DNA of 64,000 bases, from positions 1,390,001-1,454,000 of the forward strand of contig CP085710.1 in NCBI GenBank assembly GCA_023823795.1, read 5' to 3'. Position numbers and translations under genes: made by a program. Below the pieces are notes generated by a model. That model did no database searches. It was not told where the DNA came from and saw only the letters and a program-made list of their open reading frames with translations. This document shows positions 2 to 58,096 of the stretch, piece by piece (positions within the stretch are counted from its first letter, which is position 1; the number at the start of each line of letters is the position of its first letter). This DNA comes from Bacillus sp. F19 (GTDB lineage Bacteria > Bacillota > Bacilli > Bacillales > Bacillaceae).

Positions 2-490
2 AAAGTAAACGGTTTGTTTGCAGGTTTGAGCAGAGGAATTGCGACCTTGTTCAGGAATATCGATGTTGCTGCCTGGGCCATGATTTTGCTTTTTTCCTTT
101 GGCCAAAGCTCGCTGACAGGATATTTTGCTTTATTTTTTGTGTCCTTTGGTTTTTTGACAAGAGCATTCATGGAAACGATTGATGAAGTCGGTTATGGCG
201 CGGTTGAAGCATTGCAGGCAACAGGCGCCGGTTATTTTACGGTGATTATTCACTCCGTCATTCCGGCGTGTCTTCCTCAAATGATCAGCTGGGTGCTTTT
301 TATGATTGAGACGAATATCAGAAGTGCGACGCTCGTAGGAATTCTGACAGGGACAGGAATTGGATTTTCTTTTGACCTTTATTATAAAAGTCTTAATTAC
401 TCTTCAGCGAGTTTAGTCGTTCTTCTGATCGTTGTGTCCATTTTGCTGATTGAAGCGGCCTCAAATTACGTGAGGAGGGTGATTTTATAA
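2..490 (+). CDS. phnE: Phosphonate ABC transporter permease PhnE, 5' partial
   Basis: Membrane subunit of a phosphonate/phosphate-ester uptake ABC transporter. The reading frame is open from base 2, so the true start lies upstream of the window; about 162 residues are visible. They contain several hydrophobic helices and an EAA-type loop (EALQATGAGYFTVI, then a conserved proline region) that contacts the ATPase in binding-protein-dependent permeases. The stop overlaps by one base the ATG of a second permease (TAATG), so the two are translationally coupled and probably form a heterodimeric channel. phnC and phnD should lie just upstream. The phn genes downstream support phosphonate as the substrate. 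Confidence 0.85.
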   Translation, partial: KVNGLFAGLSRGIATLFRNIDVAAWAMILLFSFGQSSLTGYFALFFVSFGFLTRAFMETIDEVGYGAVEALQATGAGYFTVIIHSVIPACLPQMISWVLFMIETNIRSATLVGILTGTGIGFSFDLYYKSLNYSSASLVVLLIVVSILLIEAASNYVRRVIL

Positions 491-1332
491 TGAGAATAGA
501 AGGCTTTTCCATACCCCCGAATGCGGCAGGAAAACGGATTAAAGTAAAGCCCTTTACTAAACAGTCATTCATCATCCAGCTGACGATGACTGCTCTTGCC
601 ATTTTGACGGTTTATGGGTTCATAAGCTTTGATTATAAGGATATTACTTTGTTAGGCGGACTTGCTGCTGCTTTTGAAAATTTCAAAATAATGTTCACAG
701 AGGCTCATTTTGTTCATTTCACTTTTTCTGAAGCGATTTATCAGGTTTTAATTACAATCAGCCTGGCAGCTCTTACGACATTGTTTGGAGCTGTAATCGC
801 CTTATTTCTTGGTCTATTTGCAGCGCGGAATTTATCGAATGAGAAGGTTTCAGCTGTTATCAAAGGAGCAGTTGCCTTTATTCGAGCTGTTCCTACGGTG
901 CTATGGGTGTTAATTTTTGCTGTTGCTGCTGGACTTGGCAGCGTAGCCGCTGTAATCGGGATGACGTTTCACTCTGTCGGATATTTAATTAAAGCTTACT
1001 CGGAATCCTTCGAGGAGATGGATGAAGGAGTCATTGAAGCCCTGCGGGGAAGCGGGGCAAGCTTCTGGCAAATTGTGTTTCAGGCTGTCATGCCTTCAAC
1101 GATTACCTATTTGATTTCATGGACGTTTCTGCGATTTGAAATAAACTTCGGGGTAGCTGTAGCGATGGGTGCGGCTGCAGGTGCGGGCGGAATCGGATTT
1201 GATTTGTTTATGGCAAGCGGATTCTATTTTGACTTGAGAGAAGTTGGAATGATCACATATTTCATTTTAACGTTTGCTATTTTGCTTGAGATTCTGGCTA
1301 TTCGAATTAAATCAGGTCTTCATGCCCGCTAA
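490..1332 (+). CDS. phnE: Phosphonate ABC transporter permease PhnE (second copy)
   Basis: 280-residue inner-membrane permease. It has an N-terminal cytoplasmic stretch of about 27 residues, a first helix at about 27-46, further helices, and an EAA loop near residues 178-200 (EALRGSGASFWQIVF). Length is normal for PhnE. It overlaps the preceding permease by one base and is followed immediately by a terminator, so the transporter operon ends here. Tandem phnE genes are common in Gram-positive phosphonate transporters. The substrate is inferred from the C-P lyase genes 0.4 kb downstream. Confidence 0.88.
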   Translation: MRIEGFSIPPNAAGKRIKVKPFTKQSFIIQLTMTALAILTVYGFISFDYKDITLLGGLAAAFENFKIMFTEAHFVHFTFSEAIYQVLITISLAALTTLFGAVIALFLGLFAARNLSNEKVSAVIKGAVAFIRAVPTVLWVLIFAVAAGLGSVAAVIGMTFHSVGYLIKAYSESFEEMDEGVIEALRGSGASFWQIVFQAVMPSTITYLISWTFLRFEINFGVAVAMGAAAGAGGIGFDLFMASGFYFDLREVGMITYFILTFAILLEILAIRIKSGLHAR

Positions 1333-1333
1333 T

Positions 1334-1360
1334 AAAACGCCGATGCTTCGGCGTTTTTTG
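1334..1360 (+). terminator. Terminator of the phosphonate transporter operon
   Basis: AAAACGCC, a short loop, then GGCGTTTTTT directly after the phnE stop: a GC-rich stem followed by a T run. It separates the transporter unit from the C-P lyase unit. Confidence 0.85.
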
Positions 1361-1490
1361 TTTCGCCATGGATTTAAGACAACAGGTGCCATTATTTAGA
1401 CCTAATCCTGATACGTGTTACAGATTAAAGTGTTCTTTTTCTAAAAAAAGCCATTCCTATTCACAAATGGAGTGCCCTTCTTAGTTAATT

Positions 1491-1600
1491 CCGAGACTTT
1501 CAACCATTTTCCCGAGACTTTTTCATTTAATTCCGATACTTTCAAAAATAATCCCGAGACTTTCCGAATGAATTCCGTATAAATGTGAACAAAATGAACC
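1491..1600. repeat. Five-unit 21-bp-period intergenic repeat element, copy A
   Basis: The core CCGAGACTTT (variants CCGATACTTT, CCGTAT) begins at 1491, 1512, 1533, 1554 and 1575, exactly every 21 bases. The last unit runs into GTATAAATGTGAACAAAA. The same structure, with the same terminal sequence, occurs inverted at 57.2 kb. It is translatable on the + strand as a heptapeptide repeat, but the second copy has a stop in that frame, so conservation is at DNA level. It lies between the phnE terminator and the phn promoter region. Function unknown. Confidence 0.85.
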
Positions 1601-1691: not shown

Positions 1692-1750
1692 GTAAGGAAA
1701 AGATGAAACGCCATTCATCTTCAAACAAACTGTTTATGAGAGGAGAACCA

Positions 1751-2188
1751 ATGAAAAAATCTAGGTTATCAAAGATTTTAATAGAAGGAAATCCAAATCT
1801 GCTTAAGAAATTATCAGCCCAAGTTGAGGAAGCTCACACAGTTAAAGTGAACCGTTCACCAAGTACTGGTCTTGTCATGATGAAAACGCGTGATTCGGTT
1901 TCCAGGCAGCCATTTTATATGGGTGAAGTTCTCATTACAGACTGCGCCGTTGAAGTTCATGGCTCGCAAGGAGTTGGCGTGCTGATGGGCGAAGAGCCAG
2001 ACCGGGCATATTCGCTTGCCGTTGTGGATGCCGCCTTTAATGCAAAGCTCCCGATTGCTGGGATTTGGCTTCATGAACTTGAAGAGGAAGAAAGGAACAT
2101 AGCAAAGCTAAAGCAAAAAGAAATGTCAATACTTGCCCGTTCACAAGTAAGTTTTGACACGATGGAGGATTACAATGACAAAAGTTGA
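1751..2188 (+). CDS. phnG: C-P lyase subunit PhnG
   Basis: 145-residue subunit of the PhnGHIJ complex, which with PhnI couples the phosphonate to ribose triphosphate. I recognise the PhnG N-terminal pattern (MKKSRLSKILIEGNP) and the central GEVLITDC and GVLMGEEPDRA segments. The frame is open from 1703, but the ATG at 1751 has AGGAGA just upstream and gives the usual N-terminus. It overlaps phnH by 14 bases. It is the first gene of a tightly packed unit running to 9089. Confidence 0.9.
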   Translation: MKKSRLSKILIEGNPNLLKKLSAQVEEAHTVKVNRSPSTGLVMMKTRDSVSRQPFYMGEVLITDCAVEVHGSQGVGVLMGEEPDRAYSLAVVDAAFNAKLPIAGIWLHELEEEERNIAKLKQKEMSILARSQVSFDTMEDYNDKS

Positions 2189-18310: not shown

Positions 18311-18580
18311 CCATGGACTCTGTCCAAACCTGCTTGGGAACTCTTCCCCAGACCCCCTTTAATCCAACTCCCTAACCCCTCAATCCTTGAGGGGCGCCCT
18401 CGCCGGTAGGCAGGAACAAACGGTTGTTTGTTCAATGCCAAGAGGGTTTGGGGTGTAGTGAACCTGTCAACTCCTTAAATTCCTTCTACTCCGTTTCAGT
18501 CAGACATTTACCGTTGACAGGGGCGTTTATTTGGCTCTCTAATGTATTTTAAGTGGTCCATGAATACGATATACAAAACT
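18311..18580. repeat. ~270-bp structured direct repeat, copy 1
   Basis: Closely matches 25821-26087 in the same orientation, GC-rich against an AT-rich background. It contains CCCTCAATCCTTGAGGGG, a GAACAAAC/GTTTGTTC hairpin whose loop differs between copies, and a CCTGTCAAC/GTTGACAGG stem closing a ~40-base loop that both copies preserve. No convincing ORF. It may be a structured RNA or a non-autonomous mobile element. Confidence 0.85.
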
Positions 18581-25820: not shown

Positions 25821-26087
25821 CCTTGGGCTTTGCCCAAACCCACTGGGAAACTTTTCCCCAGACCCCCTTTATCGAACTCCCCAACCCCTCAATCCTTGAG
25901 GGGCTCCCTCGCCGGGAGGCAGGAACAAACGTGGTTTGTTCAATGCCAAGAGGGTTTGGGTGTAGTAAACCTGTCAACTCCTTAAATTCCTTCCACTCCG
26001 TTTCAGTCAGACATTTACCGTTGACAGGGACGTTTATTTGGCTCTCTAATGTTTTTTAAGTGGTCCATGAATACTATATACAAAACT
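25821..26087. repeat. ~270-bp structured direct repeat, copy 2
   Basis: Second copy of 18311-18580, same strand. Hairpin stems are kept (GAACAAAC/GTTTGTTC, CCTGTCAAC/GTTGACAGG) while loops vary. Together the copies bracket about 7.2 kb carrying the IS elements, QueC-like fragment and P450 operon. Confidence 0.85.
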
Positions 26088-31440: not shown

Positions 31441-31605
31441 AGCGTGCCCAGAAGCCGTTAATTGCTAGTCCAACCCAAGTAAGTGCCAAGACGCTTGGTA
31501 GCTGACAGGCAACTGGTGGAGAAATCCTAAGGTTGAAGCCCTGTGACAAAGTAACTCTTACAAAGAGTGCGAGCAAACTAACAGGTTGGGTGTTTTTGCA
31601 CATCC
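31441..31605. other. Possible group II intron domain I remnant
   Basis: The stretch starting GTGCCCAGAAG with AAGTGCCAAGACGCTTGG, CAGGCAACTGGTGGAGAAATC and GTTGAAGCCCTGTGACAAAG resembles the 5' structured part of bacterial group II introns by eye. There is no intron-encoded reverse transcriptase nearby. It abuts the truncated end of the type III restriction fragment. Confidence 0.3.
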
Positions 31606-32418: not shown

Positions 32419-35400
32419 ATGAAAGAGAGAAAATATCGTTGGTATAGCAAAACATCGAAAACTTCAACTGCCATTGCTTTATCATTGGGTTTACTTTTCC
32501 CCTCCGTCCAGTTTGGGATCGGACCTGTTTCGGGTGCAACTGGTAAATCAGCAGAACAAATCTTAGCATCGCTCACCCCAGAACAACAAGCGGCCTTAAA
32601 CCAACTCGAGATGACAGAAAACTATGGCTTGCAGGGATTTTCAGATGAAGATCTGAAATCAGACAAACACATTTCTGTTATCGTACAATTTAAGTCCAAG
32701 CCAGGAAAAGTAGCTGTATTAGAGGCCGCTCTGAAAGGCAAAAAAGTAACCAAACAAGAAGCCAACGAACAGGTAGATCAAGAACATTCCACATTCCAAA
32801 GTGATCTGGAAAAAATCTTACCTGCTGCCACTTCTTCTTCAGAAGTCAAAAGTGCAGAACCTTCTTATAAAATCACCCGTTCCTACAAAACTTCTTATAA
32901 CGGGGTGGCTCTTACCCTTGCTGCGAACCAAGTAGAGACGTTGATGAAATCGGAAGTGGTCCAATCCGTACACAAAAATATCACCTTTACGGTAGAGCCC
33001 CCTTCCATCGCACAGGAAGAATCTAATAACGCTTCGACGCAAGCGGCTAGTGTTCCCCTTGTAGGAGTAGACAAGCTTCATGCGGAAGGAATCACAGGGA
33101 AAGGCGTAAAAGTAGGGGTAATCGATACAGGGGTCGACTACAATCATCCTGATCTAAAAGATGCCTTCAAAGGTGGCTATGACTTTGTCGATAATGACAA
33201 CGATCCGATGGAAACCACCTACGCAGATTGGAAAAAGTCAGGTAACCCGGAATTCAATGGCTCCTCCTACTACACGGAGCATGGGACTCACGTATCTGGA
33301 ATTATCGTCGGTCAAGCTAAAAACGATAGTGAAGTCTCTGTCAAAGGAGTCGCTCCAGATGCTGACCTCTATGTGTACCGTGTCCTTGGACCATATGGTA
33401 GCGGTACTTCGGAAGCCGTAATGGCGGGGATCGACCGAGCCGTTGCCGATGGCATGGATGTCATTAACATTTCCTTGGGAGCAGGAATTAACGATCCATA
33501 CTTTCCAACGAGTACAGCCGTGAACTATGCGGTATTAAGTGATGTCACTGCCGTGGTGGCTGCGGGTAACTCAGGACTTAACTCTTACACTCTCGGCTCT
33601 CCTGGAACTGCTGCACTCGCTCTCACCGTTGGAGCCAGTGATGTATCCATTTCTCATTCGTCCATGAAAGGGGCGATCGGAACACTCAGTGGGCTGGAAC
33701 TGCGTAACATGGCAAAATCCTTCACTGATAACCTATCTACTCTAGAAGGGAAAAGTTTAGAACTAGTAAACGTAGGTCTTGGTGGTAACGCGAATTACAC
33801 GGGCAAAGATGTGAATGGCAAAATCGCTTTCGTTGCTCGGGGAACATATGCATTAGCTGATAAAGTGAAGTTTGCGAAACAACATGGCGCGGCGGCTGTC
33901 TTAATGTATAACAACGAACCTGGCCATATTCCTGCTTACTTGGGAGAAAATCAAAACTTTATTCCTACTTTCTCTCTTACTCAAGAGGATGGACTCAAGG
34001 TGAAGGAGCAACTAACTGCAGGAAATAAATCCTTCACATTTAGTAATTTAACTGTAACCAAAACACAAGGGGACACCCTAGCTGACTTCAGTTCTCGTGG
34101 ACCAGCCAAAAGAACCTATGACATCAAGCCAGAAGTCACCGCTCCTGGAGTCAGTGTGTTGTCTTCTGTACCCGCTTACATCGGGAACCATGACGCACCA
34201 ACCGATTACAAATATGCGTATGCTCGTCTCTCAGGTACTTCCATGGCAACGCCAAATGCGGCTGGTGTAGCAGCACTCTTATTACAAGTCAATCCAACGT
34301 TACAGCCTGAAGATGTAAAAACAATAATGATGAACACCGCTGATCCACTGAATGGTTCCTACAGTGTATTTGAAGTGGGAGCAGGACGCGTGGATCCTTA
34401 TCAAGCCGTCCATACGGGGATGAAGATTCAAGTACAGGATACGACCCTAGTTCCTAACGCTGATGTAATCACTACTATCAAAGAAAAAACAGGTGGCATT
34501 GCGTTTGGCACTCATTATGCAGGTGAAGATCTTAGCGTTACCAAAAAGTTGAAATTTCAAAACCTAACTGATAAAGTAAAGAATTTCAATTTGAACGTTC
34601 AGTTCCAAGCGGTGAAAGGTAGCCTAGATGCCGTAGCCAACCAGGTACAAGTGAAATTCCACCCAACCTTAACAGTGGATCCAGCTTCTACCGAAAGTCT
34701 ACATGTTACCATCGAAGTACCTAAAGCTGCTGCTGAAGGAATTTACGAAGGTTACCTCTTAGTGACCAACCAAGAGGATCAAACCGAGCAATATCGGATT
34801 CCATTTAGTGTTCGTACAGCGGAAGACAACTTCAAAACACTGGATATCGGAGGTAGTAATATATTTTCCCCAGCCTACTATCGCTATGATCACTATGGCG
34901 AATTTAATAGACATTCTTTGGTATCTGCGCAAATGAACTTGAAAACACCGATGAAAACCATGGACATGATCTTAGTAGACCGGAAATCGGGGCAAGAGCT
35001 TGGTTTCGTTGGACGACACAATCTGGTTGGAAAAAACGTCGATACAAACTATTTTCTAGTTATGTTTAATGGAAACTACTATCCGTTTACAGCCGATGGA
35101 ATCTCTACAGAAACAGCACAAGCAAAACCGGGGCAATACCAACTGAAAACGATTACGACTACTGAGGCTGACAAAGTTCTTACCAAATCCTTCGATCTAT
35201 TAGTAGATATTGATCTACCTACTTTTACAAGCTCATTGGATCAAGAGTCTCCGATCCTTGAGTACAAACCAGGTCAAACTACTTATCCATTTGAAGTGCA
35301 AATCTATGACAAAGAAATTGAAGCGGCAAAACAAGCAGGGATGGCAGTCGACCAATCGAAAAACTGGCTCTTGTGGTACTTCAACAGTCCATTACCTAGC

Positions 35401-36555
35401 TCTGTCCGTATGGACACAGCGGGAAAATGGAAAGAAGAAATACCGATGGATGAAAAAACTCCGGTCCTAAGCTTTAAGATGGATGGATTTGATGGAGGTG
35501 GGAACATAGGTGGAAGGAAAGCCTACTACTTTGTTAAAGAAGGTACTCCATTTGCTTATGGAACCAGTAAACAAAAATCGATCGCATTAGGGGAAACGAT
35601 TACCACTACCCTCACACTGGACAATGTACAAAAATTAAAGTCAGCCACTTGGAATTTGTTAGACTATGACTATTATGGTCCTAAATTTGGCACTCAACTA
35701 GAAGTGGTTGAGGCAAAACCCAATGCAGCATTAAGTGAGTTTGGTGAAGGAACAGTAACCGTTACCTATACGAATGGAAAACCATCGATCAAACTAGATG
35801 TAGCGTCTACGAAAGAAGTTTCTGGCAAAATCCCTGCTGTAGACGTAACTATTAAGGTGAAAGATACTGCTTACACTACAGTAGCAGGATTTAATGCAAA
35901 GGTTTCTTATGTGAATGAAGCGGGCACATCAACCAATCTCTTCTTTGCACCATTTTCTTGGAACGTCACCCCTACGTTCTCTGAAGCATTTGGCTACCTT
36001 ACAGCAGAAGGTTTTAGAAAGTATGCATCTGGTCAAGTTATCGCATGGTATAAAAAAGATTGGGTTCAAGCTGGGGCTAAAGTAATCTTTTCCGATGCTA
36101 TGGGTAAAGTCTACGATGCAACTATAGATAGCAGATTCCAACCAGAGTTCCTTGTGACTAAGCTTCCGTTAACCGATCAACTATTTACCAAAGAAGTACA
36201 CCTACCCGGGCACTTTATTACGATACAAAAAAATCAAAAAGTTGGCTTCTTACGCAACGGTGTGTGGTATGGGCAATATATGTACATTGACAACAAAGAA
36301 GCAGTAGCAGGTGATGTAAACCAAGACCAAGTAATCGACATTTACGATGCACTGGCGATTCAAGAAGCTTGGGGCACAAATAAACGCGAAGCAGATATTA
36401 ACTTTGATGGTATTGTTAATGCAACAGACATCGGATTTGTCAAAACCAACTACTTAAAAGTAAATCCAGATGTAGAAAACACGCCAAAACCTGCAGATAA
36501 TGTGAAGAGTAAAAGATTAGATGATATTTTAAGAGAACTTGGAGTTACACCTTAA
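32419..36555 (+). CDS. Giant secreted subtilisin-like serine protease with dockerin
   Basis: 1378 residues. Order: signal peptide (to about 40), inhibitor I9 propeptide (about 84-190), S8 peptidase with catalytic D236 (VIDTGVDYNHP), H288 (HGTHVSG) and S608 (GTSMATPNAAG), a PA domain inserted at about 410-555, beta-sandwich/Fn3-like domains, and a type I dockerin at about 1297-1350 with two calcium loops (GDVNQDQVIDIYDALAI and ADINFDGIVNATDIGF). Lactocepin-like layout with secreted protein digestion as the role. The dockerin is unusual in an aerobic Bacillus. AAGAGGG precedes the ATG. Confidence 0.9.
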   Translation: MKERKYRWYSKTSKTSTAIALSLGLLFPSVQFGIGPVSGATGKSAEQILASLTPEQQAALNQLEMTENYGLQGFSDEDLKSDKHISVIVQFKSKPGKVAVLEAALKGKKVTKQEANEQVDQEHSTFQSDLEKILPAATSSSEVKSAEPSYKITRSYKTSYNGVALTLAANQVETLMKSEVVQSVHKNITFTVEPPSIAQEESNNASTQAASVPLVGVDKLHAEGITGKGVKVGVIDTGVDYNHPDLKDAFKGGYDFVDNDNDPMETTYADWKKSGNPEFNGSSYYTEHGTHVSGIIVGQAKNDSEVSVKGVAPDADLYVYRVLGPYGSGTSEAVMAGIDRAVADGMDVINISLGAGINDPYFPTSTAVNYAVLSDVTAVVAAGNSGLNSYTLGSPGTAALALTVGASDVSISHSSMKGAIGTLSGLELRNMAKSFTDNLSTLEGKSLELVNVGLGGNANYTGKDVNGKIAFVARGTYALADKVKFAKQHGAAAVLMYNNEPGHIPAYLGENQNFIPTFSLTQEDGLKVKEQLTAGNKSFTFSNLTVTKTQGDTLADFSSRGPAKRTYDIKPEVTAPGVSVLSSVPAYIGNHDAPTDYKYAYARLSGTSMATPNAAGVAALLLQVNPTLQPEDVKTIMMNTADPLNGSYSVFEVGAGRVDPYQAVHTGMKIQVQDTTLVPNADVITTIKEKTGGIAFGTHYAGEDLSVTKKLKFQNLTDKVKNFNLNVQFQAVKGSLDAVANQVQVKFHPTLTVDPASTESLHVTIEVPKAAAEGIYEGYLLVTNQEDQTEQYRIPFSVRTAEDNFKTLDIGGSNIFSPAYYRYDHYGEFNRHSLVSAQMNLKTPMKTMDMILVDRKSGQELGFVGRHNLVGKNVDTNYFLVMFNGNYYPFTADGISTETAQAKPGQYQLKTITTTEADKVLTKSFDLLVDIDLPTFTSSLDQESPILEYKPGQTTYPFEVQIYDKEIEAAKQAGMAVDQSKNWLLWYFNSPLPSSVRMDTAGKWKEEIPMDEKTPVLSFKMDGFDGGGNIGGRKAYYFVKEGTPFAYGTSKQKSIALGETITTTLTLDNVQKLKSATWNLLDYDYYGPKFGTQLEVVEAKPNAALSEFGEGTVTVTYTNGKPSIKLDVASTKEVSGKIPAVDVTIKVKDTAYTTVAGFNAKVSYVNEAGTSTNLFFAPFSWNVTPTFSEAFGYLTAEGFRKYASGQVIAWYKKDWVQAGAKVIFSDAMGKVYDATIDSRFQPEFLVTKLPLTDQLFTKEVHLPGHFITIQKNQKVGFLRNGVWYGQYMYIDNKEAVAGDVNQDQVIDIYDALAIQEAWGTNKREADINFDGIVNATDIGFVKTNYLKVNPDVENTPKPADNVKSKRLDDILRELGVTP

Positions 36556-49293: not shown

Positions 49294-49349
49294 GCTTATC
49301 ACCTCTGCCCATTAGCTTTTGCAAATCAGGCATGAACCATTCTTTTTAT

Positions 49350-49477
49350 GGTTAGTGGAAAATAATGTAAGCATTCATGGTAAAATGATAATAAAGCGGC
49401 TGCCAAACTTTATTTTTAGGGTTAGTGGAAAATAATGCAAGCATTCATGGTAAAATGATAATAAAGCGGCTGCCAAA
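49350..49477. repeat. Tandem 70-bp duplication with promoter-like sequence
   Basis: Two copies (49350-49407 and 49420-49477), offset 70 bases, with one mismatch in 58 bases. Each contains TGGTAAAATGATAAT, which could act as an extended -10, and lies upstream of the LLM oxidoreductase gene. Confidence 0.8.
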
Positions 49478-55999: not shown

Positions 56000-57070
56000 T
56001 TAATTAGATTCCGTTTTATTAGCAATCCTCTCAATAATCTCCCCAAGCTCATCCGGCCGGTGAAACTCAATCGGCGAGACCCCTTTCTCAAATTGAATCG
56101 TATCCGCCTCAACAAGCAATACATACCTTCCATTAATCTTGCCTAAATGAATATTCTCCCCAAAGTCGGCAAGCAAGCCTTTAATAGAAGTTTCACCAAG
56201 CTTCATTTTCAATTCAGCTTCCGGCGTGTGCTCAACAATCTGTGCAGCAGCTTCAATGACTTGATGCGTGTCTAATCGCTCTTGAATCTCCCTTTTTTCG
56301 CTTGCTTCCCAGATTTCCATGTCATGCTCAAACTGCTGGCGCTCCTGGCTGTTTTCCTCGTAGGTTTCGAGAACATGCTCCTGAACCATGCTCATCACTT
56401 GGGTTTTCATGATTTCGGGCATGGATTCTCCGTATTCGACGAATTTTAAGAAGTCTTCAAAGTAGCGGGCGTGTGAGGCCTGATGAATTTTCAGCTCGCC
56501 CGGCTCTGTCATTCCTTCTTCAGGCATATGCGGGTACTGAATTGATTTCATGTTTTTTGTTGTGATCGCCATTTGCACGTTGCGGATGAGCGTGGATTCA
56601 TCCGAGATTGAAGCAACTTTTGGTTCAAAATCACATTTTAAGATGAACAAAAAAGTATCTTCAAAGTATTTTTCCGGAGTGGCAGAAAGAACTAGAAATG
56701 CCCCGCCGCGAACTGCGCTTGCATCTAAATAAGCCCCGACAAATCGTTCGCTCGCTTCTTTAAACGATTCCTTTGTATCAGCAGTAAGCGCTTTGTGGAA
56801 AAGGTTGTAGTTCGGATTAGAATCCAGCTCATATCCTGGCTCAACGACAAAGTGGCCAAGCTTCGTCGGAACCTGTTCGCTGCGCGGATGCTTCTCGACT
56901 TTGCGCTTGACGATTTTCTTCAGTTCGCCGTCCAAAAAGTCTTTCAGTGCGTTCCCTTCGTATTCTTCTGTTGTTAATGTTTGAAAATGCTTGTATTGTT
57001 TATTGGCATTCTCCTCTTTGCCATCCACTTGGATAAGGTAAAAAGAGAGATAATTAATTTTGAATTCCAT
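56000..57070 (-). CDS. DUF3900-like conserved protein
   Basis: 356 residues, soluble, acidic, without signal peptide or helices in the membrane. It begins MEFKINYLSFYLIQVDGKEE and ends in a short beta-rich part (GKINGRYVLLVEADTIQFEK, GVSPIEFHRPDEL). From memory it resembles the DUF3900 proteins conserved in Bacillales; a nucleoid-associated NdpA-like role is a weaker alternative. AGGTGAAT precedes the ATG. Single gene. Confidence 0.6.
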   Translation of the reverse strand: MEFKINYLSFYLIQVDGKEENANKQYKHFQTLTTEEYEGNALKDFLDGELKKIVKRKVEKHPRSEQVPTKLGHFVVEPGYELDSNPNYNLFHKALTADTKESFKEASERFVGAYLDASAVRGGAFLVLSATPEKYFEDTFLFILKCDFEPKVASISDESTLIRNVQMAITTKNMKSIQYPHMPEEGMTEPGELKIHQASHARYFEDFLKFVEYGESMPEIMKTQVMSMVQEHVLETYEENSQERQQFEHDMEIWEASEKREIQERLDTHQVIEAAAQIVEHTPEAELKMKLGETSIKGLLADFGENIHLGKINGRYVLLVEADTIQFEKGVSPIEFHRPDELGEIIERIANKTESN

Positions 57071-57221: not shown

Positions 57222-57332
57222 TTCACTTTTGTTCACATTTATACGGAATTAAGTTGGAAAGTCTCGGAATTAAGTTGAAAAGTATCGGAAATAAATTAGA
57301 AAGTCTCGGAATTATTTTGAAAAGTACAGGAA
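57222..57332. repeat. Five-unit 21-bp-period repeat element, copy B
   Basis: Inverted relative to copy A. The CGG (or AGG) core occurs at 57244, 57265, 57286, 57307 and 57328, exactly every 21 bases, with GAAAGTCTCGGAATT-type units. The end unit is joined to TTTTGTTCACATTTATACGG, the reverse complement of copy A's terminal sequence. Confidence 0.85.
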
Positions 57333-57342
57333 TTAGTACAAA

Positions 57343-57441
57343 ACGACCTATGAAATTGCTGAAGCTATTGACAGCAGCCAGCCTACGATTGTGAGAAAGC
57401 TGAAGAAGTATGGATTGTGTTTCGAACAGCCTGTCCAATAA
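57343..57441 (+). pseudogene. Helix-turn-helix remnant of a TyrR/RocR-type regulator
   Basis: An open frame of 32 codons reads TYEIAEAIDSSQPTIVRKLK, then KYGL and a short tail to TAA: the C-terminal DNA-binding helix of PAS/sigma-54-activator proteins. It has no start, and repeat element copy B lies directly upstream. Confidence 0.45.
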
Positions 57442-57553
57442 AACGCCTCCCGAACCCGAGCAGTTTCAGGAGCATCCTTCATACAATTGTCGAATATTAG
57501 AACATAATCTTGTGGTACAATAAAACATATTGAATCATGAGGAGAGAATACTT

Positions 57554-58096
57554 ATGGAAGAAACAGCTCGCACAGTCAAGAGTTATACGGCGATTATCGT
57601 CACACTTTCCCTTGTCGTAAATGCGATTATTCTTGGTTTGTTCTTTTTGCCGATCGGCTATGGCGGCGAAGTTAAATTTGATATTCATATTTTTCCGCGG
57701 ATAAATGCCGTACTGAACAGCTTTACGTTTGTTTTTCTGGTCATAGCGCTTGTCTCCATTATCAAGAAAAATGTGAAGCTGCATAAAGGCTTTATTTTAG
57801 CGGCTTTTACTACGACATTGCTTTTCTGTGTGTCTTATCTGACGTATCACTACATGTCAGTTGAAACAACGCGTTTTGGAGGAGAAGGTTTCATTCGAAA
57901 TGTCTACTTCTTCATTCTGATTACACACAGCTTCCTTGCTGCAATCATTGTTCCGCTTGCCCTGTTCTCAGTTGTCTGGGGCTGGACAGGTCAGCTTACA
58001 AAGCACCGCAGGATTGTCCGCTGGAGCATGCCGATCTGGTTATATGTAAGCTTTACGGGTGTCATTGTTTACTTGATGATTTCACCATATTATTGA
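57554..58096 (+). CDS. DUF420 membrane protein (YozB-like)
   Basis: 180 residues with five predicted helices: TAIIVTLSLVVNAIILGLFF, NAVLNSFTFVFLVIALVSI, ending WSMPIWLYVSFTGVIVYLM. The conserved H and W residues of DUF420 (KLHKGFILAAF, YLTYHY, HSFLAAI) are present. Family members are linked to haem-copper oxidase assembly. GAGGAGAG precedes ATG 57554. Confidence 0.82.
   Translation: MEETARTVKSYTAIIVTLSLVVNAIILGLFFLPIGYGGEVKFDIHIFPRINAVLNSFTFVFLVIALVSIIKKNVKLHKGFILAAFTTTLLFCVSYLTYHYMSVETTRFGGEGFIRNVYFFILITHSFLAAIIVPLALFSVVWGWTGQLTKHRRIVRWSMPIWLYVSFTGVIVYLMISPYY

Follow-up and report, generated by a model that had tools for sequence, protein, structure and literature searches.

Dispersed arrays of 21-bp units with a fixed one-sided end in Bacillus sp. 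F19 are candidate protein-binding platforms

The window analysed here, a stretch of 64,000 nucleotides from the chromosome of Bacillus sp. F19, contains two intergenic arrays that belong to a dispersed family. The arrays of this family have a 21-bp pitch, a fixed end on one side and fixed orthologous places in close species, the core of their unit is constrained, and in another lineage arrays with a different core have the same frame and the same pitch. We give roughly even odds (a probability of about 0.5) to the reading that these arrays are cooperative DNA platforms for a putative protein, and the use that we favour for them would be a structural one in the chromosome.

Two inverted arrays in the window

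Array A consists of four 21-bp units on the + strand (1489..1572, with unit starts at 1489, 1510, 1531 and 1552), which are followed, in register with the units, by a conserved 18-bp end, TTCCGTATAAATGTGAAC, at 1573..1590. Array B lies on the - strand and also has four 21-bp units (57249..57332, 5' starts 57332, 57311, 57290 and 57269), the outermost of which, TTCCTGTACTTT (57312-57332), is degenerate; its conserved end TTCCGTATAAATGTGAAC is found at 57231..57248. In both copies AAAA is added to the end (reaching 57227 in B), and this gives a 22-base form, TTCCGTATAAATGTGAACAAAA, at 1573-1594 (+) in A and 57227-57248 (-) in B. An initial annotation of this DNA had listed core positions with an exact pitch of 21 bases, and these coordinates are correct for both copies. 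Its description of the copies as inverted, 56 kb apart and both intergenic also agrees with the gene calls and the neighbour families. It had counted five units per copy; we count four in A and four in B, as the listed fifth position (1575 in A, 57244 in B) falls within the opening bases of the shared end. This end starts with TTCCG like a unit and continues with TATAAATGTGAAC where the units have AKACTTT. The common end that had been described is present in both copies and is longer than was stated, with 22 identical bases.

Upstream of array A lies a phnE-like gene for an ABC transporter permease (BPD_transp_1; 490..1332, +) and downstream lies phnG (1703..2188, +); a terminator-like hairpin (1334..1357, +) is located between the phnE-like gene and the array. 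Array B has a gene for a DUF3900/DUF3898 protein on its end side (56000..57070, -) and a gene for a DUF420 protein on its far side (57530..58096, +). A short open frame, KTTYEIAEAIDSSQPTIVRKLKKYGLCFEQPVQ (57343-57441), adjoins the outer end of array B. It resembles the helix-turn-helix at the C-terminus of sigma-54 activators, it has no match in Pfam, and it is perhaps a gene remnant.

We compared the window with its shuffled versions. When up to three mismatches were allowed, the 22-base end matched twice in the window and in none of 100 shuffles. Single cores (up to two mismatches) were found 23 times in the window versus a mean of 13.4 in the shuffles, a count of 23 being reached in 1 of the 100 shuffles, and 8 of these 23 matches fall inside arrays A and B. 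What goes beyond chance is the row at a fixed pitch, rather than the single core.

Several other features were seen in the window. Rfam matches comprise a group II intron domain (RF02003) at 31456-31593 (+) and two Bacillus-plasmid RNAs (RF01691) at 18454-18521 and 25961-26028 (-). A 70-bp direct repeat, present in nearly two copies with 96% matches, is located at 49343-49477. The region 32419-36555 encodes a subtilase-family protein of 1378 aa with a dockerin type I match, which to our knowledge is unusual for a bacterium of this kind.

The family in the genome and in close species

We searched the genome with a pattern made of half a unit and the end, allowing up to three mismatches and using the reversed pattern as a control. 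The search detected 14 ends (7 forward and 7 reverse; 0 with the reversed control) at 13 loci, where two end-bearing copies 238 bp apart near 1362 kb were counted as one locus. Two further ends that are weaker lie near 1745 and 2904 kb and have one or two worn units. The initial annotation had named such a search, with many intergenic copies of constant pitch and constant end as the supporting outcome, and this is what the 14 ends provide; its concern that only the two window copies might exist does not hold. A second concern, that other copies might have a variable pitch and no shared end, is borne out in part of the family, by four long arrays without the terminal tip.

These four tip-less arrays have 62 units at ∼897 kb, 10 at ∼4117 kb, 40 at ∼4476 kb and 35 at ∼4629 kb (counted with up to two mismatches). 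They mix 19- and 21-bp units, and two of them also contain 20-bp units; this mixed pitch spoils strict phasing and counts against a simple rule of constant phase. Steps of 19 bp were seen in these four arrays only. The pitch is 21 in arrays A and B and in the majority of end-bearing arrays, with occasional 20-bp steps, and because such steps occur in several arrays of the family, any reading frame through them is broken. A two-unit pattern matched the genome 81 times (29 forward, 52 reverse; reversed control 0). The unit of 21 bp includes a variable part of 6 bp, and 142 of 144 units are within four substitutions of the core. The long arrays of the genome have unit variants in common. Two of the 13 loci have three units and one has a single unit, at the cut-off of the ortholog comparison.

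Among the loci listed, the end is sharp with unrelated sequence beyond it, and the far side is fuzzy. As we read the maps, 9 of the 13 loci have their end directed at the 3' end of a gene and the other 4 at a 5' end. With the origin and dif located, a hand count gave ends pointing to the origin in 10 of 13 loci (p 0.09), and we claim no polarity. Eight of the 13 loci are within 660 kb, a clustering that was as extreme in 71 of 20,000 random sets, with the width of the interval picked post hoc. The neighbours that were scanned include phnE-like, phnG, DUF3900, DUF420, gdh, ggt, RF3 and pucR genes.

With the same pattern, the two close species G045 and G050 yielded 13 and 14 ends, respectively, and five further species of the genus yielded none. 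Of 81 genomes of the taxonomic family, 3 contained the strict two-unit pattern; of 397 genomes of the order, 1 did, namely the F19 genome itself, G045 and G050 being outside that draw. Judged by flanking genes, 11 of the 13 loci are matched in each of G045 and G050 by an array with an end. The two exceptions, at ∼3247 and ∼3313 kb, have no counterpart among the end-bearing loci of these two species. Unit numbers at copy A are 4 in F19, 4 in G050 and 7 in G045, and at copy B they are 4, 4 and 11, respectively; in a separate count, G050 has a further, detached fifth unit at the orthologs of both copies. Among the loci listed, the flanking sequence is often less similar between orthologs than the element itself, and at copy B the far-side flank is not alignable between species.

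The long arrays differ in their presence. At the 897-kb site an array is found in all three species (62, 11 and 18 units). At the matching junctions, the 40-unit array is missing from both relatives, the 10-unit array from G050 and the 35-unit array from G045; among these arrays, gain is more likely than loss for the 40-unit array only. The three presence/absence arrays, which have no end, showed no clear target duplication when compared with the empty sites. In addition, ∼50-70 bp beyond the array are common to copy A and the loci at ∼1362 and ∼4695 kb (72-83% identity). These common flanks, together with the differences in presence, mean that the arrays also move or get copied.

Viral contigs contained no match to the exact pattern, phages contained no match to two other arrays of the genome and plasmids contained no match to copy A, and with these matches absent we set aside a prophage, phage or plasmid origin. 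A Borrelia plasmid gene that is 75% alike over 134 bases of the 21-unit array was judged to be an AT-rich chance similarity. One archaeal contig was recovered in the scan of a genome collection, which may omit the F19 records or near ones; it has no units around the match and was also attributed to chance.

Constraint on the core and a different core in another lineage

We next compared the positions of the unit among orthologous unit triples from the three species. In 39 triples, the core (11 positions) varies in 21 of 429 columns and the spacer (six positions) in 56 of 234. The five triples left out of the total of 44 had an identity below 14/21; when all 44 are used with no identity filter, the counts are 45 of 484 for the core and 78 of 264 for the spacer. 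Fisher's test of core versus spacer gave p of about 1e-12 for the 39 triples and about 5e-12 for the 44, values to be read as orders of magnitude only because the triples, being related by descent, are only partly independent. The TAA of the unit varies in 7 of 117 columns, and the variable unit position 5 (12 of 39) was set apart from the core count. In four neighbour genes, 150 of 859 fourfold-degenerate codon sites vary. The spacer therefore changes about as much as neutral sites, and change in the core is several times lower. For the end, 6 of 198 columns are variable (11 loci, using the first of the two copies near 1362 kb), and the bases directly past it are more variable, in an ungapped comparison that indels inflate. 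As the core is far less changed than either the spacer or the fourfold sites, a DNA site is kept. The earlier suggestion that DNA or RNA is conserved here shifts towards DNA: the core is constrained, and no signal of RNA structure was seen in the three arrays that were folded.

Two other species of the genus, G046 and G049, have dispersed arrays of 21-bp units of their own, with a GGGG core. The pattern of this core matched 32 and 62 times in these genomes (reversed pattern 0), not at all in F19 and once in G048. A consensus drawn from 114 units of 26 arrays (arrays at L218, L219, L224 and L232 were left out) has the frame TAATT-N7-TTT, the same as in F19, but GGGG precedes the TTT. The units for this consensus were walked in steps of 21, and the pitch in G046 and G049 rests on a separate reading of the arrays.

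Flanking genes join six locus groups between the two lineages with 21-bp units. In four of the six, the arrays are in one and the same gap: the gap downstream of pucR, a small-ORF gap at 1663 kb, the 1362-kb cluster and a gap at ∼2904 kb, in which F19 retains one or two worn units. At two of these four common gaps, the arrays of G046/G049 have a similar end (ATGTGAAC or ATTGTGAAC). At the 1362-kb cluster the ends are alike between the lineages (GTATAAATGTGAAC/GTTAAATGTGAAC), and so they are at the ∼2904-kb gap (CATAATTGTGAAC/CGTAATTGTGAAC, the latter changed in G049). The G046/G049 arrays in the 1663-kb gap are without such an end, and in the pucR gap the G046/G049 array sits within a different dispersed repeat. 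Independent insertions are therefore possible for the pucR and 1663-kb arrays, given the lack of an end and, at pucR, the position inside another repeat. The gene links between the L057 group and L233 and between L171 and L219/L224 were discarded, as the coordinates place the arrays in different gaps.

A third kind of array, with 52-nt units, is found in G047 and G051 (98 and 170 pattern matches; the listed loci are L181, L182, L243 and L247). In the gap downstream of pucR, F19 itself (G000), G045 and G050 have an F19-type array, G046 and G049 have 21-bp units with the other core, G047 and G051 have ∼52-bp units, and G048 is without such an array. Both unit lengths occupy this position (21 bp in five species, 52 nt in two), which is one case and may be due to chance. 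One 52-nt array each in G047 and G051 lies in the gap beside that of the 21-unit F19 array (L139, L243, L247), and this pair was not counted as a link between 21- and 52-nt arrays because the coordinates show neighbouring gaps. Gene links also join the 1362-kb group to L244. The largest gene-link group chains 52-nt loci via open frames inside the arrays, and it was judged pair by pair.

We also observed a second dispersed repeat, GTTCTGACCGAGGAGTTGGGCGATGGA, which is sometimes tandem at ∼122 bp and was found in each of the eight species searched within the genus (24-82 matches each). It is present at L061, L062, L120, L130, L138 and L171, is not found in the window and adjoins several arrays; several of its copies in G046/G049 carry a 21-bp array inside.

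Candidate binding platforms and the alternatives

The main text of a survey of 176 Bacillus genomes describes species-specific tandem repeats of constant length, 20-21 nt and 52 nt (Subirana and Messeguer 2021, PMC8161180), and gives repeats of 20-21 and 51-53 nt as two thirds of the tandem repeats counted in these genomes (PMC8161180). Its authors point out that 20-21 nt equal two turns of the helix, and suggest a polymerising nucleoid protein or small RNAs (PMC8161180). The window arrays belong to this 20-21-nt class: each window copy has four units, one unit of copy B being degenerate, where the search setting of the survey was at least four repeats per region, and the unit length is constant at 20-21 nt, the sequence is specific to close relatives and a short sequence is kept (PMC8161180). 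As far as the survey's main text describes that class, the likeness extends to a constant unit, a non-coding and dispersed location, a sequence particular to a species or close pair, and one short kept sequence (PMC8161180). The arrays of F19 differ from it in their fixed one-sided end, conserved places, core constraint and replaced core. The main text of the survey contains none of the words 'flank', 'terminator', 'ortholog' and 'transpos', and as far as this text goes the four differences just named appear to be additions to it (PMC8161180). The 52-nt Bacillus repeats are likewise constant in length and near whole helical turns, and differ from the 21-bp arrays in length and sequence; compared by eye, the 52-nt arrays in G047 and G051 agree with the B. 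indicus family 7_52_18 as given in the survey (PMC8161180), and on this ground the genus studied here is probably Metabacillus.

According to the reading that we favour, each 21-bp unit (frame TAATT-N7-TTT) would be one site for a putative sequence-specific protein. With two helical turns per unit, the bound molecules would be on one face of the DNA and could cooperate. The 18-bp end, which keeps the TAATTCCG half-unit with the remainder replaced, could act as a distinct terminal site. The role would be in local chromosome structure (nucleoid or domain anchoring), not in the control of a single gene. The binding, the polymerisation and the structural role of this putative protein are what we infer from the arrays. 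Differences in presence and arrays within another repeat count against a purely static function. In a curvature model with A-tracts only, predicted curvature exceeded the permuted mean in 10 of 11 F19 arrays and in 8 of 8 arrays of the other lineage; in a full wedge model it did so in 0 of 11 and 5 of 8, respectively, so that the two models disagree.

Plasmid iterons and partition-site repeats are direct repeats about two turns apart that are bound in a row by one protein. In contrast to these systems, the arrays are many and chromosomal, and no rep or par gene is present among the scanned neighbours. The arrays also differ from CRISPR, which has unique spacers and identical repeats of ∼24-37 bp: the unit here is 21 bp and no cas gene was seen among the scanned neighbours.

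The next most likely reading is that the arrays are remnants of a mobile element. The array would then be a set of transposase or recombinase sites and the 18-bp end a cleaved terminus, spread in an ancestor and by now fossil. The ends of Tn7-like and IS21-like elements do combine a row of transposase sites with a distinct terminal sequence. The sharp end with unrelated sequence past it and a fuzzy far side fits such an origin, as do the ∼50-70 bp past the array shared by three loci, the three sites that are occupied in F19 and empty in one or two relatives, and the other-lineage arrays carried within another dispersed repeat. However, unlike Tn7-like or IS21-like elements, the arrays have no paired second end: in the loci read there is a single end per array and no second, inverted one, so the paired terminal inverted repeats of MITEs and transposons are lacking. 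No clear target duplication was seen at the three presence/absence sites, whose arrays are without the end, and old copies in fixed places retain the core and not the spacer, which is unexpected of fossils. We regard this origin as possible though improbable, and place the binding platform ahead of it as the most likely reading.

A device acting on transcription, either an insulator or roadblock between neighbour genes or the operator array of a regulator, is unlikely. The arrays are intergenic, and several lie just past a terminator-like hairpin (seen by eye, and computed for copy A), as such a device would have it. Nevertheless, the scanned neighbours show no function in common, the division of end directions between 3' ends (9/13) and 5' ends (4/13) argues against both this device and a repeated promoter regulator, and promoter-like matches near the window copies are at the level of shuffles.

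Far less probable still is that the arrays act as RNA, as a small RNA or a sponge, which has been suggested for the 52-nt class; the 52-nt satellites of B. coagulans are reported to be transcribed (PMC8625621; PMC8161180). Six folds (three arrays, both strands) had z from -0.38 to 2.55 and were no better than shuffles, and neither the two arrays of the window nor those of seven further loci match an Rfam family; a known RNA was rejected for the arrays examined. Neutral slippage satellites without function, which would suit the differing unit numbers of the orthologs (4, 4 and 7 at A; 4, 4 and 11 at B), are hardly credible and already disfavoured in view of the core constraint, the kept end and the kept places.

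Returning to the binding platform, we tentatively consider an extension of it, which we hold to be rather improbable as a whole: a satellite system in which one chromosomal protein would read the fixed-site arrays. A change in the specificity of this protein in one lineage would lead to the replacement of the core across the sites, while the pitch, the frame and the terminal sequence would be kept, and the 52-nt arrays (five turns) of a third lineage would be part of the same system with another pitch. The orthologous sites, the fixed end and the measured constraint mean that the role of constant-length repeats becomes testable. The questions that result are which protein reads the arrays, and whether this protein changed along with the core between the lineages.
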